A DNA stretch of 43,438 nt from Pseudanabaena biceps PCC 7429 (lineage in GTDB: Bacteria > Cyanobacteriota > Cyanobacteriia > Pseudanabaenales > Pseudanabaenaceae). The stretch is from NCBI RefSeq assembly GCF_000332215.1, contig NZ_ALWB01000014.1, forward strand, positions 1 through 43,438, in the 5' to 3' direction. Positions 19,929-41,443 of the stretch are shown here, in pieces (positions within the stretch are counted from its first letter, which is position 1; each line of letters opens with the position of its first letter). Both the position numbers and the translations under genes were made by a program. Below the pieces are notes generated by a model. The model ran no database searches, was not told the DNA's origin, and saw nothing but the letters and a program-made list of their open reading frames with translations.

Positions 19929-20492
19929 GTGGAACATCCAAATCGCGAACAGTTGCTCGATCTGTTTTGTCGTCTTGCTTATAAGAGTGGCGACTTTATC
20001 CTCTCCTCTGGGCAAAAAAGTACCTATTACATCAATGGCAAATTAGTCACGCTACATCCATTTGGTGCTCTGTGGACGGGACAGGTCTTATTAGAGATGT
20101 TGCCAGCAGAGACAGGGGCAGTGGCAGGTTTAACCTTAGGTGCCGATCCGATCGTGAGTGCGGTAAGTGTGGTATCGGCCTATGAAAATAGACCAATTCC
20201 TGCTTTGATCGTTCGCAAGCAGCCAAAAGGACATGGAACGGCCGCATGGATTGAAGGTCCTGAACTTGTGCCAAATACGAATGTGGTAGTGCTAGAGGAT
20301 GTGGTGACAACTGGGCAATCGGCATTACTCGCTGTCGAGAAATTACGTGATGCTGGTTACACTGTTACCCATGTATTAACGCTGGTCGATCGCCAACAGG
20401 GGGGAGCCGAGCTTTACGCTAAGGAGGGGCTAAAGTTTGGTGCGGTATTTAATATTGGTGAAATACAGAATTACGCCAAGGAACTGCATTAA
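19929..20492 (+). CDS. pyrE: Orotate phosphoribosyltransferase
   Basis: 187 residues from GTG 19929 (MEHPNREQLLDLFCRLAYKS). It shows the OPRT features SGQKSTYYINGK, a Lys-rich catalytic loop (VRKQPKGHGTAAWIEG) and the PRPP-binding motif VVVLEDVVTTGQSAL. It converts orotate plus PRPP to OMP in pyrimidine synthesis in the cytoplasm. Length is normal for short bacterial PyrE. The last three codons (CTG CAT TAA) fall in the outer arm of a long inverted repeat. It converges with the prohibitin gene. Confidence 0.95.
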   Translation: MEHPNREQLLDLFCRLAYKSGDFILSSGQKSTYYINGKLVTLHPFGALWTGQVLLEMLPAETGAVAGLTLGADPIVSAVSVVSAYENRPIPALIVRKQPKGHGTAAWIEGPELVPNTNVVVLEDVVTTGQSALLAVEKLRDAGYTVTHVLTLVDRQQGGAELYAKEGLKFGAVFNIGEIQNYAKELH

Positions 20493-20542
20493 CAAGAAAG
20501 AAAAAGAGGGCTTAGCCCTCTTTTTCTTTTGTTAATGCAGTT
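20482..20542. terminator. Bidirectional terminator overlapping the pyrE stop
   Basis: The inner stem is 15 bp (20497-20511 with 20515-20529) around TTA, with A and T runs. After a small bulge the pairing resumes for 12 bp (20482-20493 with 20531-20542), so the pyrE stop codon is within the stem. It serves both pyrE and the convergent prohibitin gene. Confidence 0.9.
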
Positions 20543-20549
20543 ATTAATG

Positions 20550-21359
20550 CTACTTTTGCGATTTGGCAATATCTAGATTTAGGAATGGAACTGCACCATT
20601 TCCTCCTAATACTTGGGGAAACTTGCCATCCCATTTTTCGATCGCTTGTTTCTGCAATAGTTCTGAAGTTAGGGTCTCGCGTAGAAGGCGTTGGGCTTCC
20701 GCTTGCCCCTTGGCGCGATTGATCGTTGCCTCAGCTTCCTGCTCGGCTTCTCTGGCAATATATACAGCTCGCTGAGCGCGTTGTTCCGCAATCTGTTTCT
20801 CCTCTACTGCCTTGGAAAATTCGGTTGAGAAATTTAGATCGACTACGCTGGTATCTAGAACGATAATGCCATACTTACTCAAACGTTGACTCAAAGCTTC
20901 ATCAAAATCTAGCTTAAGCTCATCGCGCTTAGTGATTGCCTCTTCTACGGTGCGTCTTGCCGCAGCCACTTTAAACGACTCTTGAGTTTGTGGGGCAATG
21001 ATTTTGGAAACAATATTTTGCAAAGTGCCTTGAGTACGGCGGATGGTTACCACCTCAATGGGATCGAGTCGAAAGTTAATTGCAAAACTTGCTGTGAGTT
21101 GTTGTAAATCCTTGGTGGAACTTTGGGCGGGGACTTCAAATTTCTGGACGGTTAAATCATAGACATCAACCTGTGAAATTACGGGTGGCTTGAAATGTAC
21201 TCCCTCAAGTAATACGCCATCCTTAGCTTTTCCTAATATGCTCAGTACACCTGCTTCTCCAGGATTAATAATTACGAATGAATTAAAACTAATAACTGCG
21301 AGAATTCCTAATATGGCAACTAGGATTAAGGATTGCCAGCTCGTTTCTTGGTCTTGCAT
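20550..21359 (-). CDS. Prohibitin-family SPFH membrane protein
   Basis: 269 residues. One N-terminal transmembrane segment (about 12-30) is followed by a prohibitin-type Band 7 domain starting VIINPGEAGVLSILGKAKDG. A long charged coiled coil follows (FSKAVEEKQIAEQRAQRA and beyond, about 180-235). Prohibitins make large rings in membranes and in cyanobacteria are found in thylakoid and plasma membranes; proposed roles are quality control and membrane organisation. Start ATG 21359 with a GGAAAAAG sequence upstream. It is downstream of recJ on the same strand but separated by 120 bp including a family B repeat. Confidence 0.92.
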   Translation of the reverse strand: MQDQETSWQSLILVAILGILAVISFNSFVIINPGEAGVLSILGKAKDGVLLEGVHFKPPVISQVDVYDLTVQKFEVPAQSSTKDLQQLTASFAINFRLDPIEVVTIRRTQGTLQNIVSKIIAPQTQESFKVAAARRTVEEAITKRDELKLDFDEALSQRLSKYGIIVLDTSVVDLNFSTEFSKAVEEKQIAEQRAQRAVYIAREAEQEAEATINRAKGQAEAQRLLRETLTSELLQKQAIEKWDGKFPQVLGGNGAVPFLNLDIAKSQK

Positions 21360-21393
21360 TACTTTTTCCTAATATCTGTGGTTTTCGATCATA

Positions 21394-21496
21394 TAAGTAA
21401 GTGGGCTTAATTAACTATAAAACCTAGAACCTACGGCGCACGCTGCGCGTGCGCCGTAGGTTTGAGATCTGGATTTTAATTATTGGGCTAGTTGCT
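21394..21496. repeat. Family B palindromic element overlapping the recJ 3' end
   Basis: Left end TAAGTAAGTGGGCTTAATTAA (21394). The core hairpin 21428-21462 has a 16-bp perfect stem, loop TGC, apex GCTGCGC (the complement of GCGCAGC). The right end TTTTAATTATTGGGCTAGTTGCT is a diverged family B end. It contains the recJ stop codon (21480-21482) and the last four or five sense codons. Confidence 0.75.
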
Positions 21497-23765
21497 GTAA
21501 CTGATGATCGAAAAACTGCTGTTGAAAAGTGAGTTCATTGGCTGCTTGAATGAATTTTTGGGATAGGGGTGGAGGAGTTGTATTTAAGGCGATCGCCTCA
21601 ATACGGATGGTTGGGTTGTCTGGATCTAGTGGGTTATCGATCGCCCGAACCACATAGCCATATTGTTGTAACTCCTCGAAGCCCATTTGCAATATATCGC
21701 GATCGCCAATTCCTAACTTGGCAACTAGTTGCGATCGCTTAATCTCTTTACCAGTCCGACTGAGATATTTAGCAATTCCTACTAACGTTTGCCATGCGAT
21801 CTTGCCATTGATCTTTTGGGGATTGGGATAGGTAAGCGCGAGGGATTGATTGGCTTGCTGAGCGCTAGCGATAATGGTATTGAGATCTTGCCAACTTTGC
21901 GGACAGCGATCGCAGATAGTTGTCACTAAATGGCGATCGATTGTGTCATCTTTGCCGCGCCAATCAATAATTTTAAGATTTGCGTCAGCCTTGTTGAAGG
22001 ATTTCGCAAGGGCAGGTATCTCGTTAGCAAGAGGCGTACTTTGGGCATGAAAATCGATTAGCCTGACATCGTAACGCTTGCGAAAGGCATTATCGACTAA
22101 CTCGATCACGATATCGCAAGGAGTATCGGGTAATTCGTAGCTATAATGTCCCCACCAATCGCCATGAATCCGATTGCCCTGCCGATCGCTTAGGGTAAAT
22201 TCTGTTTTGATATATTCAACTTTCTGACCTTTGGGTGTACGGATATTCGCATTGGATATGTCTGAAAAGTGACAATTGCGAACCAATAATCGAGGATAGG
22301 AGTTCCCCATCCCAAAAGGTTCTAACTGTTTTAGCTCGTTAAATAAATCTTTGTTTAAATCGGCGATCTCTACTTCTAAATCAATCGTGATTTTCTTACT
22401 TTGCAATACTCCATATTGACTCCAGAACGAACGATCAATTGCCTCAATTAATACCTGTAAATTCTCGATCTGAAAGCTCAAGCCCCCCGCAAGGGGATGT
22501 CCGCCGAAGCTCTGCAATAGATGCTCTTGACCCTTGAGCAGATCGTAGAGATTGATGCCCTCTAGCGATCGCGCACTACCTTTGGCAAGATCATCCTCAA
22601 GGGTGCAGAGGATCGTCGGGCGACCATATTCGGCAACCACTTGCCCTGCTACTAATCCTAAGATGCCCACCGACCATTGCGGATCGACCAAGACAATAAT
22701 GCCTACGGTTGATAAATCTAGTTGGGCAATTTTGGCTTGCACCTGTTTGAATACTCTTTTTTGGAGGGCTTTCCGCTGAGTATTTGCCATTTCGGTCTGT
22801 TCGATCAGCGCTTTACACAACTGCTCATCTTGGGTGGTAAGTAGTTCCACGCATTTTCGTACATCTCCCCAGATCCGACTGACGGCATTAATGCGTGGGG
22901 CAATGCCAAAACTAATGTCGATGGGGCGATCGCCAACCCTTTTACATTGCTCTAACAGCATTCGTACGCCGAGGCGCTTTTTTTGACGCAATACTTCAAT
23001 TCCCTTTTGGGCGAGATAGCGACAGTCTCCCGTAAGCTGCACTAAGTCGGCAACTAAGCCGATCGCCACTAAATCCAATAAATCCTCTAGGGGCTGTTGC
23101 GGTACTTCGGGCATGGTGGCATAGAGGGCTTCCATGAGTTTATAAGCGACGGCAACTCCCGACAAATGGAATAATGGATGGTCGCTGTTTAAATAGCGAG
23201 GATTGATAATTGCCGTGACAGGAGGACGCTCGTCGGGCAAGGTATGGTGATCGGTGACGATCGTATCAATTCCTAATTCTTGAGCGTAGCTTAGAGCTGC
23301 AAGGCTGGTGCTACCCGTATCACAGGTAATAATTAGACTGAGAACCTTGTCTGCGGCTTCACATTGCGATCTCAACTCATCTAATCCCCTAAGGGATATT
23401 CCATGAGATTCTTTTAACCGATCGGGAATATAAAAAACTAAGCGATCGCCTTGAGCAAAAAACTGCCCTAATCCTTCCCATAAAACCGATGTAGCCGTGA
23501 TCCCATCGGCATCAAAATCTCCCCAAATGGCGATCGTTTCGCCTCGTTCGTAAGCTGTTTGGATACGGGCGATCGCGATCGCCATTTCGGGCAAGGCAAA
23601 GGCACTAGTGGGTTGATAGGCTTCTATGTCCAAAAATGCGCTGACCTGTTCGGGACTCACAAATCCTCTTTGCCAGAGTAACTGCGCTGCAAATTTACCC
23701 ACCCTGTCCCGTATCCAAGTCGGTGGATCGATAGAATCTAAAATTTGCCAATTAGTTAAGGTCAT
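21480..23765 (-). CDS. recJ: Single-stranded-DNA-specific exonuclease RecJ
   Basis: 761 residues from ATG 23765 (MTLTNWQILDS); a TTG at 23792 would add nine. It has the DHH-superfamily motifs GDFDADG at about 82-88, CDTGSTS, DHH at 172-174, and the DHHA1 motif GGHPLAGGLSF. RecJ degrades ssDNA 5' to 3' in recombination and mismatch or base-excision repair. It is about 180 residues longer than E. coli RecJ; the extra C-terminal domain (after about 560) is usual in cyanobacterial homologues. The final codons come from a family B repeat end, so the last residues may differ from relatives. Confidence 0.95.
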   Translation of the reverse strand: MTLTNWQILDSIDPPTWIRDRVGKFAAQLLWQRGFVSPEQVSAFLDIEAYQPTSAFALPEMAIAIARIQTAYERGETIAIWGDFDADGITATSVLWEGLGQFFAQGDRLVFYIPDRLKESHGISLRGLDELRSQCEAADKVLSLIITCDTGSTSLAALSYAQELGIDTIVTDHHTLPDERPPVTAIINPRYLNSDHPLFHLSGVAVAYKLMEALYATMPEVPQQPLEDLLDLVAIGLVADLVQLTGDCRYLAQKGIEVLRQKKRLGVRMLLEQCKRVGDRPIDISFGIAPRINAVSRIWGDVRKCVELLTTQDEQLCKALIEQTEMANTQRKALQKRVFKQVQAKIAQLDLSTVGIIVLVDPQWSVGILGLVAGQVVAEYGRPTILCTLEDDLAKGSARSLEGINLYDLLKGQEHLLQSFGGHPLAGGLSFQIENLQVLIEAIDRSFWSQYGVLQSKKITIDLEVEIADLNKDLFNELKQLEPFGMGNSYPRLLVRNCHFSDISNANIRTPKGQKVEYIKTEFTLSDRQGNRIHGDWWGHYSYELPDTPCDIVIELVDNAFRKRYDVRLIDFHAQSTPLANEIPALAKSFNKADANLKIIDWRGKDDTIDRHLVTTICDRCPQSWQDLNTIIASAQQANQSLALTYPNPQKINGKIAWQTLVGIAKYLSRTGKEIKRSQLVAKLGIGDRDILQMGFEELQQYGYVVRAIDNPLDPDNPTIRIEAIALNTTPPPLSQKFIQAANELTFQQQFFDHQLQQLAQ

Positions 23766-23819
23766 ATTGCTATCGATAACTTCTTCTCCCAAAATAACCC
23801 ATGACCTATTTCGGGATTT

Positions 23820-23886
23820 ATACCAAAACTAAAAATGGCGTAGCCATTTTTTAGTTTTTCAAACCTTTAATTATGCCTAGCTACTT
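23820..23886. repeat. Chimeric repeat: family F left end joined to family B right end
   Basis: It starts TTATACCAAAACTAAAAATGGC-GTA-GCC as in family F copy 1 (apex GCGTAGC, 23838-23844). About 45 bp later it ends TTTAATTATGCCTAGCTACTTAA, the family B right end. The right TIR overlaps the stop codon of the downstream hybrid kinase gene by two bases. Confidence 0.8.
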
Positions 23887-25042
23887 AATGCGCAGTAAAA
23901 GAAAGTTCTGAAGTTTGATTAGAAGATAAATCATTACAGGGCAAAATAATCGTGAAACGGCTTCCCACCCCTAATTCACTAGTTGCTTCAATGCTTCCGC
24001 CGTGCAGTTCGATAATTTTTTTGACAAAGGTCAGCCCCAGACCCATGCCATCATACTTGCGACTATAACCAGTATCGACTTGCTTAAAGGGTTGAAAAAT
24101 TCTATGTAAATCTTCTTTAGCGATACCAATGCCACTGTCAGTTACTGAGATGCGAACTGGTGTCGTGAAATTAGACTCTCGTTGATATTCTCGCTGATTT
24201 TCGCAGGTTAGTTCGAGGATAATATGACCATTTTCAGGTGTAAATTTCACCGCATTATTGAGCAAATGCATTAGAGCCTGAAAAATGCGTCTTTCATCTA
24301 AAATCATAGAGGGAATTCCTTCTTGAATTTTCGATTCAATCTTAATTCGTTTGGGCGCTGCGATCTTGGCAACACAACCAAGACAGGTTTGACAAAGTGA
24401 AGCGAGCGACATCGGTTCGATGGTTAATTTAAACTCCCCTGCTTCAAGCATGGATAGATCGATCATGTTATTAACTAAGTTTAATAAATGATCACCACTG
24501 CTATTGATAACTTGAATTGCTTCCAATTGTTTGGGATTGATCGAACCAAATACTTCTTCCTTCAAACAGTCCGAAAAGCCTAAAATTGCATTAAGAGGAG
24601 TGCGAAGTTCGTGACTGACTACGGACAATAATTTCTCTTTGAGGGTGGTTTCCTTTTGTTCGTCGTTTTGAGCGCGATGGGTGGTTAAGGCGATCGCTAA
24701 TGTGGAAAGGAGTTGCTCTTGCCGAAAAGGTTTAACTACATAGCCCATGGGATTAGTCGATTGGGCTCTTTTTAAGGTTTCTGCATCTGAAAAAGCAGTG
24801 AGGTAAACAACGGGAATATCGCAGAAGGATTGAATAAACTGGGCGAGCTTTATCCCATCAATATCTCCTTTGATCCGAATATCTAGAAGAACGAGTTTAG
24901 GAGAATATTCTAAGATCTTCTGGATGGCCGTCTGAGCATCAACAGCGATCGCACAAATGGTATAACCTTCGTCACGAAGTATTTGGGCAATATCTTGCGC
25001 GACTAGTCTTTCATCTTCAACTATGATTACTGGGATACTCAA
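23885..25042 (-). CDS. Response regulator-histidine kinase hybrid (REC-HisKA-HATPase)
   Basis: 385 residues. The N-terminal receiver domain (1-120) has the acidic pocket E9/D10, phosphoacceptor D54 (LLDIRI) and K104 (VVKPF). It is followed by a HisKA domain with H144 in SHELRTPLNA and a HATPase_c domain (LLNNAVKFTPENG, DSGIGIAKED, GMGLGLTFVKKI). It has no membrane segment and is thus cytosolic. The REC-first order suggests a kinase whose activity is tuned by an upstream phosphodonor. The start is TTG 25042 because the receiver fold begins there and GAGGTTAAGG lies upstream. The large PAS kinase is 504 bp upstream on the same strand and is the obvious candidate partner, but this is inference. 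Confidence 0.92.
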   Translation of the reverse strand: MSIPVIIVEDERLVAQDIAQILRDEGYTICAIAVDAQTAIQKILEYSPKLVLLDIRIKGDIDGIKLAQFIQSFCDIPVVYLTAFSDAETLKRAQSTNPMGYVVKPFRQEQLLSTLAIALTTHRAQNDEQKETTLKEKLLSVVSHELRTPLNAILGFSDCLKEEVFGSINPKQLEAIQVINSSGDHLLNLVNNMIDLSMLEAGEFKLTIEPMSLASLCQTCLGCVAKIAAPKRIKIESKIQEGIPSMILDERRIFQALMHLLNNAVKFTPENGHIILELTCENQREYQRESNFTTPVRISVTDSGIGIAKEDLHRIFQPFKQVDTGYSRKYDGMGLGLTFVKKIIELHGGSIEATSELGVGSRFTIILPCNDLSSNQTSELSFTAH

Positions 25043-25113
25043 TACCTTAACCTCGTTCAGAAAGCTGCCTGCAAACCAATCTTGATTCTATGATTCTTTG
25101 AGATTCCTATAGG

Positions 25114-25260: not shown

Positions 25261-25410
25261 GGATATTAATCTCAACATAAAATTTACATTCATCTTAGCG
25301 TAGAAAGCTGCATGGATAAACAAGTTACTATACAAACTATTGTGATTTCCTAGGGCGATTAGATGCTTGTTATCACATGACTATAATATTTTTTGCCCAA
25401 ATTTTATATG

Positions 25411-25505: not shown

Positions 25506-25546
25506 ATAATTGTTCTGCTTTTTTTCTTTTCTTTTCTTTTCTTTTC

Positions 25547-28500
25547 TTAATGAGTCTTTTGCCACACAGGAAAAATTACTTGAAATTTCGTTCCTTTCTC
25601 TCCGTCATGAATCAGAGTCCCTTCTAGTTGTTCTACTAAACTGAATACTAGCTGCATCCCCAAGCTATCCGTATGTTCTAAAATAATATTGGCTGGAATC
25701 CCAACTCCATTGTCCGCCACAATCAAATGATATTGCTGTTGTTTTTGTAAAAGCTGAATATTTATTTTGCCAATACCTTTAGGGAAAGCATATTTTAAAG
25801 AGTTAGATATTAATTCATTGATAATTAGTCCTAAAGAAATCGAGCGATCTAAGGGTAAAGAAATATTACTTGCATCTATCGTATATGTGATCAATGTAGG
25901 GCTTTTTCCATAGCACTGAAATAAATTTACTAGTAAATCAGATATATAGTTATAAAAATTGATTTGATCGAGATCGTCATTGCGATGAAGTTGGGCGTGA
26001 AGTAAAGCCATCGATTGAATGCGATTTTGATACTCTTCAACCAAGATTTTGACTTCGGGGGTAGTTTTGCGAAACTGCATTCTTAAAAGGCTAGACATTA
26101 CCTGTAGATTGTTTTTTACACGGTGATGGACTTCTTTGAGCAATACCTTTTTCTGTTGGAGTTCATTCTCTAGTTGCTGATATAGGATTTCTTTACTAGC
26201 AAGCTCGATTTGTACCTGCTGATACAATGTTGCTTGTTGGAAAATAATCGTAAATTGACTAGATAACTGCTTCATTAAATCTATTTCCCATTCCTGCCAA
26301 TGCCGAGAACTATCGTATTGATGTATGCATATTAATCCCCAAAGTTGATTATTGTTAATGATTGGCATTGCTAACTTAGCTTTAATGGGTGGGGAAATAA
26401 GATATTCATTGCCTAAAGATATAACTTTTAATTCCAATTCACTCTCTGATTCTCCATGTAAGACATAAAGTTTTCCCTGTAGATATTCTTTGTATAAATC
26501 TTCGGGAACGGTATTATCCCAAACAATGGCATTGAAGATGGATTGCCAAGGTGCAGAGACGGACTCGGCAACAACTAACCTCGTTCCGTTATCTAATACT
26601 TGATAAATAAGAGTGCGATCGCCATGGAAAAACTTATGGATTTCGGTAACGGTTATGTTGAGAATTTCCTCTAGTTGGAGAGAAGACCGAATGCGTTGGG
26701 TAATGATGCTGAGGAGTTTTTGTTGTGATGTTTGCTCAAGTAATCGAGCCTCAGCAAGCTTTAGTTCGGTAATATCCAGCATAATTCCATGGCGAGCAAT
26801 ATCTCCATTTTTGCGCTTAAATAAGGTCACATTTAGATTTTCGATCCTTTCGGGCATAGAGTTGATTTGTAACCATTTAATCTTGCCTGAAGGGGTAACG
26901 ATTCGGCATTCATGGTTTAAAGGAGATGCCGAAGCAATGCTATGAAGAGCTGCGTCCCAAAAACCTTGCCGATCGTCGGTGTGGTGATGATCGTAAAGGC
27001 ATTTGCAGTCTTGGAGTACTTGTTCAGGGGACAATTCATAGATATCCTCGACCCTCGAACTAATATATTCAAAATAATGCTCTCCGTCAGGATTATGAAT
27101 ATATGTATAGATTATTCCAGGAAAACTTGAAACAATCCTTGCGAATCTTTGTTCGCTTGCCAGTAGCTCTGCTTCTACTATTTTGCGATCAGTAATATCA
27201 TTGGCTGTACCAGTAGTTAACAAGACTTTGCCATTTTTATCGAGACTAAATACCGTATCGAGAGTGTAAAGCCAACGCCAATTCCCATTAGCATGTTTCA
27301 CGCGATACTCAGACTGAACGACTTCTCCATCAGCAGCAACATTAATCCGTTGAAAATATTGGAAATATACATCCATATCTTCTGGATGGATCAGGCTAAG
27401 AAAAAAATCAGATCCCATTTCTTGAATCTCTTCAGGGGTATACCCAAGAACAGATTGCAAATTTTTGTTTGCATAAATGTTTCTTTGCTCTTGGACATTG
27501 AATAGATAAATGATCCCTGGTGAAGAGTCTGCAATTTGATTGATGAACCTTTGACTTTCTTCCAGATTTAGCTCTATTTGTTTGCGATCGCTAACATCTT
27601 GAGCGTTACCAATAATCTGTTGCACTCTTCCACAATCATCGCGATTAAAAATCGTGTCATAGCTACGGAGCCATTTAATCTCACCATTTGCATTGATCGC
27701 TCGATATTCAACTTCTAAGATTTCTTCATCACGAGCCTGACTTAATCGATGGATGTGAGATTCCATGATAGCAAGGTCTTCAGGGTGAATCAGGTTCCGA
27801 TGTAAGTTATCTTTCATCGCTTGGATCTGTTCGGTTGAATAGCCCAAGATCTTGGCAATTTCTCGATTAGAATAAATATTGCGTTTTTCCTGTAAATCGT
27901 ATAGGTACAGGATATTGGGTGAAGCATCAGCAATCTTTTGAATAAATTTGAGATTATTTTGTAGTTCGATCTCAGTTTGCTTGTGAGCAGTAATATCACA
28001 ACAGAAACCAATGTACCCTAGAAAAAGATTATCTTTATTAAATATTGGGACTCCACGATCTATAATCCAACCGTAGATTTGGTCGTGGCGCTTGAGGCGA
28101 TATTCCATTTCAAAGGATTTTCTCGCATCAAAGGCTTTAAAGTAAATATCTAGACTCATCTCGCGATCGTCGGGATGAATGCCTTCAAGCCAACCATCAC
28201 CGATTTCTTGCTCTAAAGATCTTCCCGTGTAGTCTAGCCAAGCTTGATTGAAATAGTAGTAGGACTTGTCTGTTCCAGATTCCCGCAGCATAACATGAGC
28301 GCGCTCGGCAATGGTATAGAAATATTCTCGATCGTCTATTATTTCTTCAGAAGGCAATGGTGCGTGAGGATTTTTAGACATTGGTGATTTCTGCCATTGC
28401 CTTGTAGCAGCAATTTCTTTTTTGGCAATTTCTTTTTTGGCAATTTCTTTTTTGGTAATTTCTTTTTTGGTAATTTCTTTTTTGGCAATTTCTTTTTTTA

Positions 28501-28918: not shown

Positions 28919-28949
28919 GGGTTTAATTTAAATCAGTTAAACATAATAA

Positions 28950-31288: not shown

Positions 31289-31292
31289 TACC

Positions 31293-31435
31293 ACGTCAGT
31301 TCGAGGTAAGCTGGCAAATTTTAAAAGCCCAAAATTAAAAGCCTTGCTAAGCAAGGCTTTTAGTTTTGGGCTTTGAGAGGGGGGTGCTTAGCCCCCCCCT
31401 CTCAAAGCCCGTTTCAAATTATTCCGAACTCACGT
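31293..31435 (-). repeat. Family A palindromic element (143 bp), diverged but structurally intact
   Basis: Ends are ACGTCAGTTCGAGGTAAGC and inverted AATTATTCCGAACTCACGT. Hairpin 2 loop is TAA (GCTAAGC). Hairpin 1 has changed to a G/C-rich stem (GAGAGGGGGGTGC ... GCCCCCCCCTCTC) that still pairs, showing substitutions on both arms. Confidence 0.88.
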
Positions 31436-31457
31436 TTGCTTAGGACATAAAATCCCC

Positions 31458-31494
31458 AATATGAGTAGCGGCGCTTAGCGCCGCTACTCATATT
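31458..31494. repeat. Family D palindrome abutting the glgB stop
   Basis: A 17-bp perfect stem (31458-31474 with 31478-31494) and loop TTA. TTAGGACATAAAATCCCC is the usual left flank, but the matching right foot is missing because the glgB stop codon (31498-31500) starts 4 bp later. Confidence 0.88.
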
Positions 31495-31497
31495 AGT

Positions 31498-33756: not shown

Positions 33757-33874
33757 ATCTCTTTTAGTAAACGCACATATTTAAATTACTGCATATTATT
33801 CACCAAATTGCGGTGTGTAATCTAAACTAAAGACTGATGGTTTATTTCGTTTTTTTTTAATGTGGTGCTTGCTG

Positions 33875-33990
33875 TTATAGCTGTAGTCACTTAAGTCAGG
33901 ACATCAACCCCAATAGAGAGTTGTGGCGCGAAGCGCCGCAACTCTCTATTGGGGTTGATTTTTGCCCTAATATTACTGACTATAGCTATA
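33875..33990. repeat. 116-bp palindromic element with a family D core
   Basis: Outer ends TTATAGCTGTAGTCA (33875) and inverted TGACTATAGCTATA (to 33990). The central stem is 27 bp with one G-T pair (33903-33929 with 33933-33959) around GAA, apex GCGAAGC. The feet AGTCAGGACA and TTTGCCCTAA are paired imperfectly. It is in the gap between glgB and the two-component operon. Confidence 0.88.
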
Positions 33991-34012
33991 AATTCTGTAC
34001 CAAAAATATTTG

Positions 34013-34116
34013 TAAGTAGTTCGGCATAATGAGAAACCGAAACCAGAGAGCATACCGCCCGCGCAGCGGGCGGTATGCTCTTCTAGGTTTTAAGTTTACT
34101 TATGCCTAGCTACTTA
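34013..34116. repeat. Family B element (104 bp)
   Basis: Ends TAAGTAGTTCGGCATAAT and inverted TTATGCCTAGCTACTTA. Core hairpin AGAGCATACCGCCCGC-GCA-GCGGGCGGTATGCTCT, the same stem as the copy at 38157. With the previous element it fills most of 33757-34158. Confidence 0.9.
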
Positions 34117-34158
34117 TTAGGGTAATGTTCCATCCAGTTAGGATAGAGAGGTCTGCTT

Positions 34159-34839
34159 ATGAACGTTCTATATATTGAAGATGAAGAAAAAATTGCTAAT
34201 TTTGTATGTATTGGCTTAAAAGAACAAGGCTTTGTGGTGGACTATTGTAATAATGGAAATGACGGATATACCCATGCCCTAGAGTTTGAATTTGACGCGA
34301 TCGTACTGGATATTATGGTTCCTGGAAAAGATGGCTTAGCAATTCTGAAGGGGTTACGCAAGGAAGGAAATACTACGCCGATAATTTTATTGACAGCCCG
34401 CAATGAACTTGATGATCGCCTATCGGGCTTAAATCTCGGAGCAGATGATTATATTGCCAAACCATTTTTTGTTGAAGAATTAGTTGCGCGGATTCATGCT
34501 GTTGTCCGTCGGGGCTCAGGCGATCGCCAAAACATCCTCGTTGTTTATCCCCTCAAACTCGATCGCCTTACCCGCGAAGTTACCTGCAAACAAGTAGCGA
34601 TCGAACTTACTTCCCGTGAATTTAATTTGTTGGAATACTTAATGCGATCGCCAGGACGGGTCTTTACCCGTACCCAGATTCTCGAGCATGTTTGGGGCTA
34701 TGACTTCAATCCGAATACCAATCTAATTGATGTTTGTATTCAACGCATCCGCAAAAAAATCGAAAAGGTCGGCGGTGAAGAATGTCTAGAAAGTGTGCGC
34801 GGTGTGGGTTATCGCTTTCGCAAACCTCAAAACCCATGA
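34159..34839 (+). CDS. OmpR/PhoB-family response regulator
   Basis: 226 residues. The receiver domain (1-118) has acidic E7/D8/E9, phosphoacceptor D51 (IVLDIMVPG), T80 region LLTARN and K104-type AKPF. A winged-helix DNA-binding domain (about 130-222) follows, with LTSREFNLLEYLMRSPGRV and VRGVGYRFR. It activates or represses its targets after phosphorylation by the downstream kinase. ATG 34159 follows AGAGAGG. Spacing to the kinase gene is 70 bp, so one operon. I would not assign a specific name such as rppA without alignment. Confidence 0.95.
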   Translation: MNVLYIEDEEKIANFVCIGLKEQGFVVDYCNNGNDGYTHALEFEFDAIVLDIMVPGKDGLAILKGLRKEGNTTPIILLTARNELDDRLSGLNLGADDYIAKPFFVEELVARIHAVVRRGSGDRQNILVVYPLKLDRLTREVTCKQVAIELTSREFNLLEYLMRSPGRVFTRTQILEHVWGYDFNPNTNLIDVCIQRIRKKIEKVGGEECLESVRGVGYRFRKPQNP

Positions 34840-34909
34840 AAAAATCACGAAAAAACCATGAAAAAATGAGAGATTACTACGCAGCAAGAACGCTCATAAT
34901 GAACTTCTA

Positions 34910-36487
34910 ATGAAACTAAGATCTTTCCGTTTTCGCATTGCGCTGCTATCCGCCTTACTTGCGGGAACTGCGATCGCGGGTTTTAGTGGTGTTACTTATT
35001 TACTATTCTATCAATCCAAACTCAACACCATTGACAATGAGATCAAAGATCAATTATTAAGAGAATCTTCTGTCCCCCGTCCGTTAAACCACTGGCAAAT
35101 TTACGAGCAGCACCGATCGGCTTTTTTTGAAGATCGGATGCAAAATGCGATCGCCTTATTGGTGCAAGATCGCGATGGCAAAACGATCTATCAATCGAAT
35201 AATTGGCAAACGGCTCTCAATCCTGCCCCCTTATTTGTAAATTTAACAGAACCAAAACTATCTAATTTACCCAATTTACCACTGCCATCTTTAAACCCAA
35301 CGTTGCCGACTCCGCCACCCGATCGCCCTCCACCTCGCCTCCTCCAAAATCGAGAATCAACCACTGGAACAACTGAGAATCGATTTGCGGCTCGTCTCCC
35401 TGATCGTCCCGCTCCTCGTCCATTGGAGGAGGCATTCAAATCGCCTCAGGTTATCTCCAGCCTGATTACAAGCAAAACCCCCACGGGAATATGGCGATTG
35501 GGAACTGCTTCTACTCCCTATATAAAAATTGCGATCGCAGTTAATTTGGGAATAATCGATCGCGAGATGAGCACGATTCAAAAGGTGTTTCTGATTGCCA
35601 TTCCCTTGACACTGTTATTAATGATGGTAGGCGCATGGTTTTTATCGGGTGGCGCATTAAAGCCCGTCAAACATCTTACCGAAACTATTCGTCGGGTAAA
35701 TGCTAAGGGGCTAAGTCAGCGGACATCGGTTACAGATCTGGATATAGAGTTTGTGGAACTAGCGCAAGTATTCAATCAAATGATGGAACGCCTAGAGCGA
35801 AGCTTCTTACAAGCTTCAAGGTTTAGTGCCGATGCCGCCCATGAACTGAAAACTCCTTTAGCAATTTTGCAAGGCGAACTAGAACTTGCTTTACAGAATA
35901 CGGAAACAGGTTCGACTATGCAGCAAACTCTCAGTAATCTATTAGATGAGGTTTGTCGTCTCAGTTCGATTACCCGCAAATTACTATTGTTATCCCTTGC
36001 CGATGCAGGCAAAATGAGCATACAGAAAACCGAGTTAAACTTTTCGCAAATTCTCTATGAAATTACCGAAGATATCGAGATTTTAGCGCCCGAACTATCA
36101 CTAAAACTAGATATTCTTCCCGATTTAAAAATTTGGGGCGATCGCGAATTACTAACACAGGTTTTGCAAAACTTGATGAACAATGCCATTAAATACAATC
36201 TGACAGGTGGCTGGATTCGGATTGAGACCAAGGTTAAAAATAACTCTCTGTTAGTAACCATCAGTAATAGCTCGCACGATATACCCTTGAGCGATCGCGA
36301 TCGGCTATTTGATCGATTCCATCGAGCCGATCCTGCCCGTAACCGTGGGTTAGAAGGCTTTGGGCTAGGACTTAGCCTGTCTAGAGAAATTGCGCGCGCG
36401 CACAATGGCAATTTACAACTTGAAACCAGTACTCAAGGCTTTACGAGCTTTACGCTAACAATGCCCCGATCAATACCCCAAAGATGA
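34910..36487 (+). CDS. Membrane sensor histidine kinase with HAMP domain
   Basis: 525 residues. Transmembrane 1 is about 9-33. The extracytoplasmic region (34-224) contains an exceptionally Pro-rich stretch (115-175, with LPTPPPDRPPPRLL). TM2 is about 225-247, HAMP 248-300, and H311 lies in the H-box SADAAHELKTPLAI. The ATPase domain has LMNNAIKYN and LEGFGLGLSLSREIAR. It forms a pair with the preceding regulator. The final residues SIPQR and the stop lie in the left arm of a family D palindrome, so the extreme C-terminus probably derives from the repeat. The stimulus is unknown. Confidence 0.94.
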   Translation: MKLRSFRFRIALLSALLAGTAIAGFSGVTYLLFYQSKLNTIDNEIKDQLLRESSVPRPLNHWQIYEQHRSAFFEDRMQNAIALLVQDRDGKTIYQSNNWQTALNPAPLFVNLTEPKLSNLPNLPLPSLNPTLPTPPPDRPPPRLLQNRESTTGTTENRFAARLPDRPAPRPLEEAFKSPQVISSLITSKTPTGIWRLGTASTPYIKIAIAVNLGIIDREMSTIQKVFLIAIPLTLLLMMVGAWFLSGGALKPVKHLTETIRRVNAKGLSQRTSVTDLDIEFVELAQVFNQMMERLERSFLQASRFSADAAHELKTPLAILQGELELALQNTETGSTMQQTLSNLLDEVCRLSSITRKLLLLSLADAGKMSIQKTELNFSQILYEITEDIEILAPELSLKLDILPDLKIWGDRELLTQVLQNLMNNAIKYNLTGGWIRIETKVKNNSLLVTISNSSHDIPLSDRDRLFDRFHRADPARNRGLEGFGLGLSLSREIARAHNGNLQLETSTQGFTSFTLTMPRSIPQR

Positions 36488-36580
36488 GTGGCGGCACTTT
36501 GCACCGCCACTCATCAGCTAAAACCTGCGGCGTGCACCGCAGGTTTTAGGGTTTTATATTTAATTATGCCCACTTACTTA
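36472..36580. repeat. Chimeric repeat: family D arm plus family B right end, covering a stop codon
   Basis: ATACCCCAAAGATGAGTGGCGG ... CCGCCACTCAT is the family D body but lacks its right foot. A second hairpin follows (36518-36530 with 36537-36549, 13 bp) and then TTTAATTATGCCCACTTACTTA, the family B right end. The stop codon of the sensor kinase (36485-36487) is in the family D arm. Confidence 0.8.
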
Positions 36581-36613
36581 AAACCTTGCTATAAAGCCTT
36601 AAATAAAACTTTC

Positions 36614-36658
36614 AAGCCCGTAGCTTCCGCTACGGGCTTTGGTTCTGTTTTTTTATTA
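36614..36658 (+). terminator. Intrinsic terminator of the two-component operon
   Basis: An 11-bp perfect stem (36614-36624 with 36629-36639) with loop TTCC, followed by GGTTCTGTTTTTTTA. It is 127 bp after the kinase stop, beyond the chimeric repeat. Confidence 0.8.
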
Positions 36659-36750
36659 TGCACAGTTTCTTAACGGTTGCAAGGCAATTGATTATATGCT
36701 TAATTTAACTTGAATCATTATGTAGTTCGTGCCGAACTTTCACTTTAATT

Positions 36751-38001
36751 ATGTTTTCTTGGCAAATGTCGTTACGAATTTTTCTGGGTATCATCACTGG
36801 ACTGGCAACGGCGTTGATTCTCCATGCTTGTCAAGCTGAACCGAATGCTCTGAATAATGGTTCTAATGTTCCCTCTAGTGCCGAAGCAAATAAAGTTGCC
36901 GTTGTCTCAAAATCTCAAGATCAACCTCAAGATAAACCTAAAAAAACAGAATTGCCACCAGCAACGAAAGCGATCGTCGATAGCGTTCCAAATGGTCTAT
37001 ACGATCCACCCCGAGGCGACATTCGACTGGCGGTAATTAGCGATTTAAATAGTTCCTATGGCTCGACCGATTACGAACCAGAGGTAGATAAAGGACTTTC
37101 CTTGCTGCCATTTTGGCAACCAGATATGGTAGTTTGCAGTGGCGATATGGTGGCAGGACAATATCCATCGCTGACTGAAGATCAGATCAAAGCAATGTGG
37201 GCTGCCTTTGACGATCGCATTGCAGCTCCTTTGCGGAAAGCGAAATTGCCCTATGGATTCACGGTGGGAAATCACGATGCCTCCAGCGCGAGAGGCATTT
37301 CTGGAAAATTTTTATTTGCGCGCGATCGCGATGTTGCCTCGAAGTATTGGAATGCTCCCGCTCACGATCCTGGGGTTGAATTTGTTGATCGCTTTGAGTT
37401 CCCTTTTTATTACACTTTTAAATACAAGGATGTTTTCTTTTTGACTTGGGATGGTTCATCCGATTTGATTCCCAAAGATAAATTGGAATGGGTAGAAAAG
37501 TCGTTGCAAAGCCCTGCGGCAAAGGCGGCGAAGATCAAAATTTTATTGGGGCATTTACCTCTCTATGCGGTCACGGTCGGTCGGGACGAGCCTGGGGAAG
37601 TGATGGCAAATACCGAACAGTTACGTGCCATGCTAGAGCGCAATAATGTCCATACCTATATTAGCGGGCATGACCACGGCTACTATCCTGCCCATAAAGG
37701 CAAGCTGCAATTACTGCATACGGGGCTTCTCGGATCTGGTCCCCGTCCTTATATTGGTAGTAATATGCCGCCACGCAAAACAATGACAATTATGGATATC
37801 AACTTCTCATCGCCTGAGTTGACGACCTATACTACCTACGACATGAAAACCATGCAAAAGATTAATTATAACGAGCTGCCGAAATCGATCTCAGCGCATA
37901 ACGGCATCGTATTACGTCGGGATGTAAAGATGGAAGATTTGAGTGCTTCGGAGCGATCGAATTGCGAAAGTAGATTGGGAGCGAATCTGTGTAGTGCTTA
38001 A
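36751..38001 (+). CDS. Lipoprotein calcineurin-like metallophosphoesterase
   Basis: 416 residues with an N-terminal signal containing a lipobox (LHAC, lipidated C27) and a Ser/Gln/Lys-rich tether to about 85. The phosphoesterase fold follows with its motifs in order: AVISDLNSS, CSGDMVAGQ, VGNHDA, LLGHLPL and SGHDHGYY. The first motif has Asn instead of His (DLN rather than DxH), which may alter metal binding; the others are intact. It is anchored to the periplasmic side of a membrane. The substrate is not predictable. ATG 36751 kept, since it starts the signal; ATG 36766 is possible. No operon partner. Confidence 0.88.
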   Translation: MFSWQMSLRIFLGIITGLATALILHACQAEPNALNNGSNVPSSAEANKVAVVSKSQDQPQDKPKKTELPPATKAIVDSVPNGLYDPPRGDIRLAVISDLNSSYGSTDYEPEVDKGLSLLPFWQPDMVVCSGDMVAGQYPSLTEDQIKAMWAAFDDRIAAPLRKAKLPYGFTVGNHDASSARGISGKFLFARDRDVASKYWNAPAHDPGVEFVDRFEFPFYYTFKYKDVFFLTWDGSSDLIPKDKLEWVEKSLQSPAAKAAKIKILLGHLPLYAVTVGRDEPGEVMANTEQLRAMLERNNVHTYISGHDHGYYPAHKGKLQLLHTGLLGSGPRPYIGSNMPPRKTMTIMDINFSSPELTTYTTYDMKTMQKINYNELPKSISAHNGIVLRRDVKMEDLSASERSNCESRLGANLCSA

Positions 38002-38056
38002 GGTTACCATTCCTAAGATTTTGAATCGTAACAAAACCTCTATCTGGATAGATTTA

Positions 38057-38159
38057 ATACCAATTCCCAAAATGGCGTTGCCATTTTGGGAATCTCAAAA
38101 CCTTAATGGGTCTTTTTTTTAATTCGCTGAAGTGTTGGCGCACTTCAGTGAATTGGTAA
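38057..38159. repeat. Family F palindromic element, copy 2
   Basis: Ends AATACCAATTC and GAATTGGTA(A). Left hairpin CCCAAAATGGC-GTT-GCCATTTTGGG has an extended stem compared with copy 1. The right hairpin is TTCGCTGAAGTG...CACTTCAGTGAA. Its right end overlaps the left end of a family B element by two or three bases. Confidence 0.85.
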
Positions 38160-38243
38160 GTAGTTCGGCATAATTAAAAACCAAAACCAGAGAGCATACC
38201 GCCCGCGCAGCGGGCGGTATGCTCTCTGGTTTTAAGCTACTCA
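38157..38243. repeat. Family B element with 24-bp perfect stem, right end truncated
   Basis: Left end TAAGTAGTTCGGCATAATTAA. The core pairs 38183-38206 with 38210-38233 around GCA (apex GCGCAGC). The right end is only TTAAGCTACT, cut short at the stop codon of the next gene (38244). Confidence 0.88.
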
Positions 38244-38717
38244 TTACGATGAAGACCTAAAAAGCGATCGCCAATAAGCTCGGATGGGAAAAGCAGTATA
38301 GTCGCGGACGATTGACATTAACACCAAAAAATGACCGCAAAAAGTGGCGATCGCCCAAAACTTAGGAAACCATGCTAAGGGAACATTGGGTTCTGGGGCA
38401 AAATAATAGGCGGCGCAGGAGGTAATTGCCGTGGGAATAATCACTAACAAAATCCCAAAAATACTAAGCCAGCGACTCGTATAGACCTGAACGGCGTTAG
38501 CATTTTCCCAACGTTTGCCCGTCCAAGCCCAGCGCAGGGTAGAGATCGTATCTGCCATTCGCAAAAACTGTTGCCGTCGATCCTCGCTTTGCTCCAGCAA
38601 AAAAATATGACTGCAAAAGTTACAAGCTAGGGATTCCATCATAGGCATAGGTGCGATCGCGCCTCGCAGACAGACGGGACAGGGAGAAGATGACGATCGC
38701 GAACTAAAATAACTCAT
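38244..38717 (-). CDS. Small zinc-ribbon membrane protein of unknown function
   Basis: 157 residues from ATG 38717 (MSYFSSRSSS). There are two CxxC pairs, CPVC (about 13-16) and CNFC (about 32-35), forming a likely zinc ribbon. A conserved-looking linker (LRWAWTGKRWENANA) and two transmembrane segments follow (about 86-108 and 118-140). It is directly downstream of the GTPase gene, and its start region has a 13-bp triplication with two out-of-frame decoy ATGs, the first overlapping the GTPase stop as TAATG. The two proteins probably act together at a membrane. Not a family I can name. Confidence 0.8.
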   Translation of the reverse strand: MSYFSSRSSSSPCPVCLRGAIAPMPMMESLACNFCSHIFLLEQSEDRRQQFLRMADTISTLRWAWTGKRWENANAVQVYTSRWLSIFGILLVIIPTAITSCAAYYFAPEPNVPLAWFPKFWAIATFCGHFLVLMSIVRDYTAFPIRAYWRSLFRSSS

Positions 38718-38743
38718 TGAAATAACTCATTAAAATAACTCAT
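38704..38743 (-). repeat. Three tandem 13-bp copies at a start codon
   Basis: ATGAGTTATTT(T/C)A occurs three times on the minus strand with starts at 38743, 38730 and 38717. Only the third is in frame with the downstream protein; the other two give ORFs of 9 and 8 codons. The first ATG overlaps the GTPase stop (TAATG). Confidence 0.95.
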
Positions 38744-40179
38744 TATGTTTTCCTGAGGCGACGCAGATCGATTTTGGCGCGAAGTTCATCCTTAATTCTA
38801 GCTAGGATCGAATCTTCATCGATCGTATCGAGAATACGTTTAACGACGGCTTTAGGACCATCAGCCCCCCATGATGCACCATTGGCGAGATATTCCTTAG
38901 TGACCAGTCCGAGGGCATAGGTTGAGAAGCCAGCGACCCCAGCTTGGGCGATCGCTACGGATAGATAACCACCTAGAGTCAAGCCACCCGTTGCAGGTGC
39001 AGCAATGCCCAGTAGTCCTTTGAGGGAACTCAAGCCAAAATTGGCGAGAAATTCACTGGCACTGATTCCCCCCATCCCTAGGGCGATTTTTTGCATTAAC
39101 GCGATCGCGCCCCGATTGCTCATATTTATGCCATAGAGTTTTGACAGGGCAACGATCATCGACACATCAATAATGGCAGTGCTAATTACGTCAATTACCG
39201 TAAAGGGATTAACAGCGATCGCCACAGCTTGCGTGATCACACAATTCCAAACGATCCGATTGGCTTGGCGATCGCGAACAAACATTTTGCGCTGGACTAC
39301 CCGCTCCTGCACCATATCGGCAAACATCATCGTATTGAGAGCAATCAGGGATTTTCCCTCGCGATCCAACACCTCTAGAATTTTTAATTTGAGCTCCTCA
39401 ATTTGCGGTTTACCAACAACCAGCTCCGCTTCAAAGGAGCCATCGGGTTGACGGACTGCCTTGGCGATCAAGGGTGAGGCAGCCGCCATCACGATTTCAT
39501 CTTGAGTCAATAGTTCGCGCACCCGCTCATCGCGAATTTTGGCATAAATGGCTAGACGATCTTCGGGGGGATACTGATCGATTTTGTTAAACACCAATAG
39601 GATTGGCTTACTAGCCCCTCTTAATTCCGAGAGTGCGTCATATTCCACCTTAGTCATATCGCCAGCCACGATAAATAAAATTAAATCCGCTTGCTGGGCG
39701 ATCCGCTTGGCTAGTTCGGCACGACCTTCCCCATCAACCTCGTCAATGCCTGGGGTATCGATTAATTCAATGCGGGCTTCGCCTCGCCCCTGAAAGGATG
39801 CCCTCAGGATCGTGCGATCGCCATTAGTTTCCATGGTCTCCCGCGATATTTGCCATTCGGCTGCTTGCCTACTGGTCGTGACCCCATGCAGGGGACCAGT
39901 CTCAAAAAATTGCCCACCCATGAGGGCATTGAGAACCGATGACTTACCCCTGCCTACCATGCCAAATACTGCGATTTGTAAAACCTGACGCTCTAGCTTG
40001 TCGAGCATTTGCTGGAGTTCTTCTAAGGGTTCCTCTAATCCACGCCGTTCGCGTTCTGACAAATCTAGATTTGCCACAATATCGCGCAATGTTCTCTGTG
40101 CTTGGCGATAATTTAGTTCCTCAAAGATTTCATCAAAGCTGAGAAAATTTTCATCTTGTGGCATCACATTGCTAGGCAT
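38743..40179 (-). CDS. Era/dynamin-like GTPase with DUF697-type C-terminus
   Basis: 478 residues. An N-terminal helical region (1-65) precedes a G domain with P-loop GMVGRGKS (73-80), a switch I region GVTTSRQA, G3 DTPGID (141-146) and G4 NKID (198-201). The second half (about 280-460) is helical with hydrophobic stretches (VITQAVAIAVNPFTVIDVI, then GALALMQKIAL-like region), as in the DUF697 proteins common in cyanobacteria. Such proteins bind membranes peripherally or integrally; function is not known. It is translationally linked (TAATG) to the small zinc-ribbon membrane protein. ATG 40179. Confidence 0.9.
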   Translation of the reverse strand: MPSNVMPQDENFLSFDEIFEELNYRQAQRTLRDIVANLDLSERERRGLEEPLEELQQMLDKLERQVLQIAVFGMVGRGKSSVLNALMGGQFFETGPLHGVTTSRQAAEWQISRETMETNGDRTILRASFQGRGEARIELIDTPGIDEVDGEGRAELAKRIAQQADLILFIVAGDMTKVEYDALSELRGASKPILLVFNKIDQYPPEDRLAIYAKIRDERVRELLTQDEIVMAAASPLIAKAVRQPDGSFEAELVVGKPQIEELKLKILEVLDREGKSLIALNTMMFADMVQERVVQRKMFVRDRQANRIVWNCVITQAVAIAVNPFTVIDVISTAIIDVSMIVALSKLYGINMSNRGAIALMQKIALGMGGISASEFLANFGLSSLKGLLGIAAPATGGLTLGGYLSVAIAQAGVAGFSTYALGLVTKEYLANGASWGADGPKAVVKRILDTIDEDSILARIKDELRAKIDLRRLRKT

Positions 40180-40477
40180 AACTATTTAGCATGAACTATT
40201 TCAGAAGGAACTATACTTATGGTATTCGAGTCTTAAAGGCTAACAATTTACCCACAAGCTAGTATAAAAACTGGTGTAAAAAGGTTGTCTTTTTTAGTGA
40301 ATTATTGTTAAATTTGCCAGAAATTACTTTCGGACAATGATTACCTTTGACTTTTAAGTTAAGTTTGCAAGTTTAAGTTTGCAAGTTTAAGTTTGCAAGT
40401 TTAAGTTTACGTAGTTATTTCTGCGTATCCAATCCCAAATAACCCTCATAATAAATAGTATTGTAGCTAGGAGAAAT
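40180..40477. promoter_or_regulatory. Divergent promoter region of the GTPase and Tic22 genes
   Basis: 298 bp without a gene, AT-rich. It contains three exact tandem copies of the 14-bp unit AAGTTTGCAAGTTT (40361-40402) plus a partial copy. AGGAG at 40469-40473 precedes the Tic22 ATG by 4-5 bp. Promoter boxes were not identified. Confidence 0.6.
40361..40408. repeat. 14-bp tandem repeat, three copies plus partial
   Basis: AAGTTTGCAAGTTT occurs at 40361-40374, 40375-40388 and 40389-40402, then AAGTTT. Each unit has the self-complementary core TTGCAA and lies 70-115 bp upstream of the Tic22 start. Confidence 0.95.
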
Positions 40478-41299
40478 ATGTCCTTATTTAAGTCGTTGGT
40501 TAATCTAGCAGCCACCGCAGGTGTCGCAGGGGCGATCGCTGTTAGTCCCATATTTACTCTGAAAGCTGAAGCCTTGACCGAAGCCCAAGTTTTGGAGAGA
40601 TTGGGTAGTATTCCTGTTTTTACAATCACCGATGATAAGGGTTCGCCCCTATTAGGTGCAATCCCCCAACAGCCAAACACGAAGCCTGATGACAGTCAGC
40701 TTTTGTTTTTCTTCCTCGGACCCGATGAAGCACAAATGATGCTAGCACAGGTACAAAAATCTAATCCTGAAGTTGGCAAAAAAGCGCAAATTGTCATAAG
40801 GTCAATGAATGACGCGTACACGGTAATTCGCCAAAATAAAGACAAAAAAATTGTTTTTCAGTTTATTCCCACTAAGGCAAGTGTTGAATCGGCGCGGACA
40901 ATCTTAACCGCTCAGGGGGTAGCAGCTGACAAGATTCCCAATGTGCCTGTTTTCTTTGCGATCGGCGGTCAAGCTAATAGTCAAGGCTTGTTAACTATGA
41001 GCATCGATCAAAATGGCAAAAAGGAGCAAGTCGTCCCCTTCTTCCTCGATAAAACCGATCTCCAAAACTTGCTAGATCGTGCGGGTAAGGAGCAGCCTGA
41101 TGTAGCCAAGACAACTAAGATCCAAGTTGCATCGCTCTTCCAAGTACTGGATTCGATGGTATCTAAGGATGATAAGCCCAATCCAGAAGTAGAACGTTTC
41201 CAGTTTGTGCCATCCCGTTCTTCCTTTGAGTATATCCTCAAAAATACAAAGCAACCTGCTACACCTCAGATAGCACCACAGACCTCTCCCCAAAAATAA
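40478..41299 (+). CDS. Tic22-like protein
   Basis: 273 residues with an N-terminal signal peptide (hydrophobic about 8-24, cleavage near KAEA). The Tic22 fold follows, with two related halves: VFTITDDKGSPLLGAI and FFLGPDEAQMMLAQVQKSNP in the first, VFFAIGG... VVPFFLDKTDLQNLLDRAG in the second. A Pro/Gln-rich tail ends it. The cyanobacterial relative of chloroplast Tic22 is a periplasmic and thylakoid-associated chaperone for outer-membrane proteins. Start ATG with AGGAG closely upstream. The last base of the stop codon is also the first base of a family A repeat. Confidence 0.92.
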   Translation: MSLFKSLVNLAATAGVAGAIAVSPIFTLKAEALTEAQVLERLGSIPVFTITDDKGSPLLGAIPQQPNTKPDDSQLLFFFLGPDEAQMMLAQVQKSNPEVGKKAQIVIRSMNDAYTVIRQNKDKKIVFQFIPTKASVESARTILTAQGVAADKIPNVPVFFAIGGQANSQGLLTMSIDQNGKKEQVVPFFLDKTDLQNLLDRAGKEQPDVAKTTKIQVASLFQVLDSMVSKDDKPNPEVERFQFVPSRSSFEYILKNTKQPATPQIAPQTSPQK

Positions 41300-41443
41300 C
41301 GTGAGTTCGGGATAATTTGAAATGGGATTTGAGAAAGGGTTTGCTACGCAAACTCTTTCTCAAATCCCAAAAGTAAAAGCCTTGCGTAGCAAGGCTTTTA
41401 CTTTTGGGATTTTAAAATTTGCCAGCTTAACCCGAACTGACGT
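41299..41443 (+). repeat. Family A palindromic element (145 bp) overlapping the Tic22 stop
   Basis: Ends ACGTGAGTTCGGGATAAT and inverted TTAACCCGAACTGACGT, with TA on both sides. Hairpin 1 apex GCTACGC with one arm mismatch; hairpin 2 apex GCGTAGC, stem CCCAAAAGTAAAAGCCTTGC perfect. Confidence 0.92.

Follow-up and report, generated by a model that had tools for sequence, protein, structure and literature searches.

Introduction

Several families of small bacterial repeats are known to supply stop codons to genes. In Streptococcus pneumoniae, 36 annotated genes end in a copy of the BOX repeat that encodes the stop, and the accessible passages of the source report no strong evidence for truncation of these genes (Croucher et al. 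2011, PMC3049150). The same passages describe BOX repeats as short, folded and dispersed, with copies inserted into one another, present SPRITE repeats as enriched near gene 3' ends, and name Nezha, which is also cited in PMC10969869, as a cyanobacterial miniature inverted-repeat transposable element (MITE). In excerpts of PMC2229807, the RUP element of pneumococcus is a MITE of 107 bp, attributed to the insertion sequence IS630-Spn1, whose targets contain TA and which carries stops in all six frames, and the small Correia/NEMIS MITEs of Neisseria include a 155 bp class with stops in every frame that is found almost exclusively between genes. In Beggiatoaceae and Cyanobacteria, according to excerpts of PMC4679880, TAACTGA direct repeats carry three-frame stops and overlap the stop codon of 13 upstream genes. 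Here we describe palindromic repeats of four families, A to D, at the gene ends of Pseudanabaena biceps PCC 7429, starting from contig NZ_ALWB01000014.1 (43,438 nucleotides, analysed whole and called the window below), and we argue that families A, B and C probably insert at TA or TWA (TAA or TTA) sites and rebuild the stop codons that they enter.

The likeness of these families to BOX is one of effect: in both cases stops are supplied to otherwise intact genes, here to 47 of the 1417 genes called in 1.87 Mb of the P. biceps genome, whose stops lie in or at an A, B or C element. In contrast to B, for which we have both a pre-insertion site and a tip that closes three frames, the BOX passages contain no rule by which an A is added to a duplicated TA. 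RUP measures 107 bp and has its attributed IS630-Spn1, whereas B measures 104 bp and A 149 bp, and no partner insertion sequence was found for them in the sequence read. Correia/NEMIS elements belong to another organism and are likened to A and B by description, the excerpts making no mention of landing on stop codons; with Nezha the likeness is that of a cyanobacterial MITE, by name only. The TAACTGA repeats are tandem heptamers in direct orientation, located mostly just before start codons in the excerpted account, whereas A, B and C are inverted-repeat elements. Literature searches, which covered titles and the openings of abstracts with subscription journals mostly outside their scope, returned no report of families A, B and C or of the TA-plus-A rule. 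Stop-supplying repeats are already in print, and the mechanism described here is cleaner than what the precedent passages give.

Results

An empty site at the ureC stop codon

Orthologues were sought in 26 genomes of the genus Pseudanabaena, P. biceps included. At ureC the site is empty in genome G014 (ttcttgtttTAGaacttctatcccta), where the gene ends tttTAG and continues with aacttctatcccta. In G000 and G007 the site is filled and reads ttcttgtttTA-AGTAGCTAGG...GAACTACT-TAgaacttcta; here ureC ends tttTAAGTAGCTAGG, and GAACTACT and TAgaacttcta follow the element. Comparison of the two states demonstrates that a family B element entered the TA of the TAG stop, that this TA was duplicated, and that the first A of the element made the stop TAA. 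The protein ends RYFLF before the stop in all 24 genomes with a match, and a B element stands at the stop in two of them.

The explanation that we consider probable as a whole is the following. Family B would insert at TA and duplicate it, family A, likewise tipped by TA, presumably does the same, and family C would insert at TWA with duplication of 3 bp. Insertions inside genes would be lost; the stops TAA and TAG contain the TA target. As the first element base after the TA is A, insertion of an A or B element in a stop should rebuild TAA and leave the protein unchanged, and for family C the TAA stop itself would be the duplicated target. Insertion of B a few codons upstream of the stop should be tolerated too, since within 17 nt the B tip offers a stop in each frame; the old tail would then be replaced by signatures such as -K or -SS before the stop. 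All three families are presumably moved by a transposase that we did not see.

Structure of the families

Element and gene counts refer to the 1.87 Mb mentioned above (34% of the genome), unless they belong to an earlier set from the first 1.57 Mb. Family B comprises 406 ends and 119 pairs, 91 of which are exactly 104 bp long; family A comprises 117 ends and 41 pairs, 27 of them exactly 149 bp. The tip consensus is TAAGTAG(C/T)T.GGCATAATTAAA for B and TAACGT(C/G)AGTTCGGG(T/A)TAA for A, both with TA at the tip. From their sequences A and B look MITE-like: both have terminal inverted repeats, a fixed short length and many copies, and for B the empty ureC site in G014 adds a target-site duplication (TA).

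Family C has the form TACCAA..TTGGTA, with commonest lengths of 101 or 41 bp. Among 171 candidate pairs an exact 3-bp duplication flanks 66, against 36 obtained by shuffling, and in 64 of the 66 it is TAA or TTA; a 4-bp duplication flanks none of the 171. These statistics suggest a TWA target with 3-bp duplication. Duplication of TWA is linked with the IS5/Harbinger (Tourist-like) group.

The interior of the elements is variable in a regular way. Among the 91 B copies of 104 bp, 95% of the cells in the central hairpin are paired and all 16 pairs show changes on both sides, most of which reflect the presence of two main stem sequences between identical ends. B copies (window positions 21394-21497 and 34011-34117, and others) keep their ends and carry at least two unrelated central stems of equal length and nearly perfect pairing, as though this palindrome could be swapped. 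In both families the hairpin loops are found in either orientation. Family A, whose arms are conserved, has GCTACGC (13) and GCGTAGC (7) at one loop and the two orientations in numbers of 10 and 11 at the other (27 copies); B has GCTGCGC (29) and GCGCAGC (20) among the 91 copies. The loop of the ureC B element is inverted between G000 and G007 (loci L195 and L196). Of five hairpin pairs from these two genomes four are valid, the RecJ pair consisting of two different hairpins, and three of the four, one of them weakly, score as inverted; two further genome pairs gave seven hairpin pairs, two of which score so, each by one base. This suggests frequent inversion of hairpin loops, as by strand switching. 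Elements also nest in each other's TA: in the purC 3' flank (contig C7, about 24290-24530) a family A copy lies within the terminal TA of a B copy. The ureC 3' flank of G007 (L196) has a composite family C insertion at TAA that is absent in G000 and by eye fits a 3-bp TWA duplication.

Coincidence of element ends with stop codons

A bias of the repeats towards stop codons, noted in the preliminary description of the window, is real in the placement check on these 1.87 Mb, at a strength of only 1.8-fold. The expectation assumes uniform use of intergenic TA and stop TA sites (A and B) or of TWA sites (C), with insertions inside genes lost. The tip of B fell exactly on a stop 18 times (at most 287 elements) against 11.9 expected (p = 0.055), and that of A 9 times (at most 76 elements) against 3.15 (p = 0.004); the numbers of A and B elements are ends minus pairs and therefore upper bounds, and the expected counts are if anything too high. 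Family C was exactly on a stop, with the TAA stop as the duplicated target, in 8 of 123 elements (4.8 expected, p = 0.11), or in 4 of 66 when exact duplication was required (2.6 expected, p = 0.26). Together the three families give 35 exact matches against 19.8 expected (Poisson p 0.0013). On the first 1.57 Mb, B had given 17 against 9.8 (p = 0.02). Exact matches were found for 3 of 18 elements in G004 (0.7 expected, p = 0.035) and for 1 of 10 in named loci (0.4 expected, p = 0.36). Genes were called with a home-made hexamer score, in which stops are more reliable than starts.

The register of the stop matches was observed directly: besides the exact matches, B ends genes in other frames at offsets -4 (four cases), -8 (four) and -14 (one), as its tip sequence predicts. 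Of the 406 B ends, 280 have a stop in each of the three reading frames by 17 nt, compared with 3.8% of 8000 random intergenic TA sites and 6.0% of 4000 TAA starts; as the sequence of one family, this figure is one evolutionary observation and not 280. None of the 117 A ends closes the three frames by 17 nt; by 19 nt, 36 have done so.

Replacement of a protein tail by B is seen in PurC (25 genomes), which ends MKRVLSS in G000 and MKRVLATIV in the close relative G007; the codon that B entered is TTA. purC was also tried as a second clean empty site and failed, as a family A copy directly follows B.

Gene ends in the window

The window is the entire contig C14 of an assembly of 5.47 Mb in 464 contigs. 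It starts within a family A copy and ends within a family B copy, so that this contig breaks at repeats. The features discussed are as follows.

23885 to 23887, minus strand: stop codon TAA of the hybrid histidine kinase gene (23885-25042), which is also bases 1 to 3 of a family B end
23865 to 23887, minus strand: this family B end, TAAGTAGCTAGGCATAATTAAAG, reading away from the hybrid kinase
41297 to 41445, plus strand: family A element of 149 bp, starting on the Tic22 stop TAA (41297-41299)
21394 to 21497, plus strand: family B element beside recJ, with scored end at 21394, central hairpin at 21428-21462 and right end degenerate or missing
36470 to 36515, plus strand: family D hairpin at the 3' end of the HAMP sensor kinase gene, supplying ATA CCC CAA AGA (IPQR) and the stop TGA (36485-36487)
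20484 to 20540, plus strand: terminator-like palindrome of pyrE, whose outer arm holds the last codons and the stop (20490-20492)
31456 to 31496, minus strand: family D stem, G-T pairs included, just beyond the glgB stop (31498-31500)
31291 to 31437, plus strand: family A element whose first base is the third after the stop (31286-31288) of the 30989-31288 gene
3995 to 4143, plus strand (right edge approximate): family A element whose first base is the third after the stop (3990-3992) of the WD40 gene (2727-3992)
18686 to 18786, plus strand: family C element TACCAA..TTGGTA of 101 bp, with two hairpins and TTA on both sides, an example of its family that is not at a stop

Most overlaps of repeats with gene ends that had been described for the window were confirmed. 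The stop of the hybrid kinase (Pfam domains HATPase_c, Response_reg and HisKA) overlaps a B end, beyond which a family C-like stem extends from about 23821 to 23861, and that of Tic22 (PF04278) overlaps a family A end, the coincidence in both genes comprising the first three bases of the element. From the sequence, the HAMP kinase stop does lie inside a family D arm, and the terminator palindrome of pyrE has the stop of this gene in its outer arm. The end of glgB (identified by Pfam) adjoins a family D stem, if G-T pairs are counted, and the family A copies described within 5 bp of the WD40 and 30989 stops both begin 3 bases past them.

For recJ, whose stop and last codons had both been placed in a B end, only the stop (21480-21482, minus strand) stands. 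B copies match through 21483 and no further (among the 50 matches listed; 40 of 351 candidates scored). That the last codons are clearly coded by the repeat was rejected: they fall below the B-end score of 10 and align with those of RecJ in relatives (QLQQLAQ here, QLQNLA in G021 and G017), and a loose likeness to the B tip persists by eye.

The pyrE stem runs through the stop into the last codons, and other long stems also enter genes; 44 of 807 hairpins in the 1.57 Mb set partly overlap a called gene. The other arm of the pyrE palindrome is the likelier copy, because the pyrE end is conserved in relatives, and this intergenic arm may have been copied from the gene end by template switching. 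The window also contains tandem repeats at 1677-1741, 17109-17178 and 28397-28513, with units of 13, 14 and 15 bp.

C-termini in related genomes

Orthologue tails were read for six sets (UreC, Apt, Tic22, HAMP kinase, PurC and RecJ), and for pyrE the reach of the alignments was compared, without letters. A RecJ scan across named genomes gave 26 loci, with best matches in Pseudanabaena. RecJ counts refer to 22 of the 26 genomes, leaving out G002 and G008, whose matches are split or partial, and G023 and G024, which gave a paralogue only; G016, which has an in-frame stop within the matched part, was retained in the tail counts. The HAMP kinase set consists of the six best matches, the remaining genomes having only matches of at most 33% identity.

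The suggestion that C-termini are being rewritten by the repeats held for the HAMP kinase, PurC and some RecJ, and failed for UreC, Apt, Tic22 and pyrE. Family D is present at the HAMP kinase end in G000 (IPQR) and G007 (MPPR), and the other four orthologues end differently. RecJ has 16 different last-four-residue endings in 22 genomes; its stop lies in a hairpin in G018, G013, G010 and G016, and in a B end in G012 (by score) and G021 (by eye). The RecJ tail is rewritten in G012, G013 and G021 and probably in G010 and G016. Apt ends in Y in 25 of 25 genomes; a B end scores at the stop in G000, G023 and G004, and B-like sequence is seen there by eye in several more. The Tic22 tail, rich in K and P, ends at about the same place in 26 of 26, with an A element at the stop in G000 and G007 only. 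In all 26 genomes the pyrE alignments extend to residue 184-187 of 187, and rewriting of the pyrE end was rejected on this ground.

At the stop, the apt 3' flanks (L250-L274) of several species share a degenerate tip resembling that of B (TAGGTAGCTAGGCAT is an example), with related sequence after it. An old B insertion may have been kept there.

Among 70 further or overlapping targets with a stop at an element, 12 had an orthologue in the available stretches, six of them already in the main sets. In the other six comparisons, three were hairpin cases without a clear answer, and the remaining three were the hybrid kinase and genes on contigs C30 and C11, which are taken up below.

Discussion

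Several observations weigh against insertion with stop rebuilding as the general explanation. The excess on stops is modest, and for B alone (p = 0.055) it became weaker with more data; replication in G004 and in the named loci is thin, and two B cases (offsets -1 and -18) match no predicted frame. A single clean empty site was found, for B. The right flank at PurC lacks the continuation of the old purC tail and has in its place the family A copy and further sequence. No empty site was seen for A, whose flanks do not prove a TA duplication. The rule that gave the 171 pairs of family C yields 72 in reversed orientation, so that part of the 171 are chance or composite. A gene on contig C30 with A at its stop ends GLESN against GLEK in a relative (L033), one on C11 with C at its stop ends AYQ against AYQSS (L025), and the hybrid kinase and its relative L028 (62% identical) have different tails; thus exact stop matches are not always protein-neutral, and the tails are perhaps changed in these two more genes, C30 and C11. 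No autonomous partner was found either: the eight widely spaced pairs of A or B ends listed from 243 sequences (3.2 Mb, about a third of the P. biceps genome plus relatives), each 0.5-3.5 kb wide and enclosing an open reading frame, contained no transposase recognisable by eye in their longest open reading frames. The IS630-type model PF13358 has three matches in the genome, and the one such gene inspected (contig C30) has ends that do not match A or B; PF13359, the only IS5-type model tried, has none. A TA target, as in IS630/Tc1-type elements, is present in B.

The residual bias towards stops might mean active steering, in which the elements or the machinery that moves them are directed to the 3' ends of genes, for example via terminators or stopping RNA polymerase. 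Apart from the 1.8-fold excess itself, 27 A and B ends lie exactly on stops (1223 TA sites) against 67 at 1-60 bp beyond (4987 TA sites at 3-60 bp). Family A has 23 ends 3-60 bp past stops and none within 60 bp upstream of starts, and 19 of its 41 pairs are located between convergent genes, compared with 12% of sampled TA sites (n = 6000). Family B, however, has 44 and 38 ends on the two sides and a convergent share (8 of 119 pairs) not above that of TA sites, and its candidacy as a gene-end specialist was rejected on the near-equal counts; for C the numbers are 45 and 17, and 31 of 123. The same strips hold 5040 TA sites beyond stops and 6834 upstream of starts. A family A that looks selected for, or tolerated mainly at, gene ends thus stands beside a family B that looks close to neutral in placement. 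Hairpins in general give 321 ends near stops against 60 near starts (807 hairpins, ordinary terminators and mobile repeats mixed), and selection against hairpins near starts would yield the same pattern without steering. A TA or TWA target with loss in genes predicts 19.8 of the 35 stop matches, so strong gene-end targeting is not needed; targeting to just after genes, one of two causes offered in the preliminary description, is superfluous for most of the effect. We hold steering to be very improbable and attribute the residual bias, tentatively, to purifying selection.

The other cause offered, survival of insertions that double as terminators, is plausible for A, with its one-sided ends and its enrichment between convergent genes, and is not supported for B, which has neither. 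In its general form, elements near stops would be kept as putative bidirectional intrinsic terminators and overlap with the stop would be a by-product. The GC stems with flanking A and T tracts favour it, as do the consensus-like terminator sites at 31200-43438, which number 27, overlapping stems counted repeatedly, against 12.7 (standard deviation 3.4) after shuffling, several of them being these repeats. Yet terminator function predicts neither the exact in-register matches on the TA of stop codons nor the closure of three frames, and we regard it as a possible but somewhat doubtful general account. Unlikely to a greater degree is a broad rewriting of C-termini by repeats with functional consequences. 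The 16 RecJ endings, with the stop in a hairpin in four genomes and in a B end in at least two more, the family D endings of two of six HAMP kinases, the replaced PurC tail and the tails of the C30 and C11 genes all speak for it; against it, UreC, Apt and pyrE are constant in their ends, Tic22 ends at about the same place, and the changed tails are short and lie in variable regions. In some cases rewriting is real, and it alters the last few residues.

Insertion at TA or TWA with rebuilding of the stop remains the preferred reading. An extension of it, which is speculative and which we would rather doubt than adopt, is that B tips, and in part those of A, have been shaped to be stop-safe, with gene ends as landing sites; stops would then drift to TAA, last residues would be replaced genus-wide, and RecJ would have been overwritten repeatedly. 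The RecJ endings involve at least four palindromes, seemingly unrelated.

Overall, the analysis provides a testable rule for small mobile repeats on stop codons: the target TA lies within two of the three stops, and the element adds the missing base. Some protein ends in Pseudanabaena are coded by repeats and differ between relatives, which affects both annotation and the comparison of orthologues. The pneumococcal precedent suggests that landing on stop codons could be common wherever TA-targeting MITEs are abundant.

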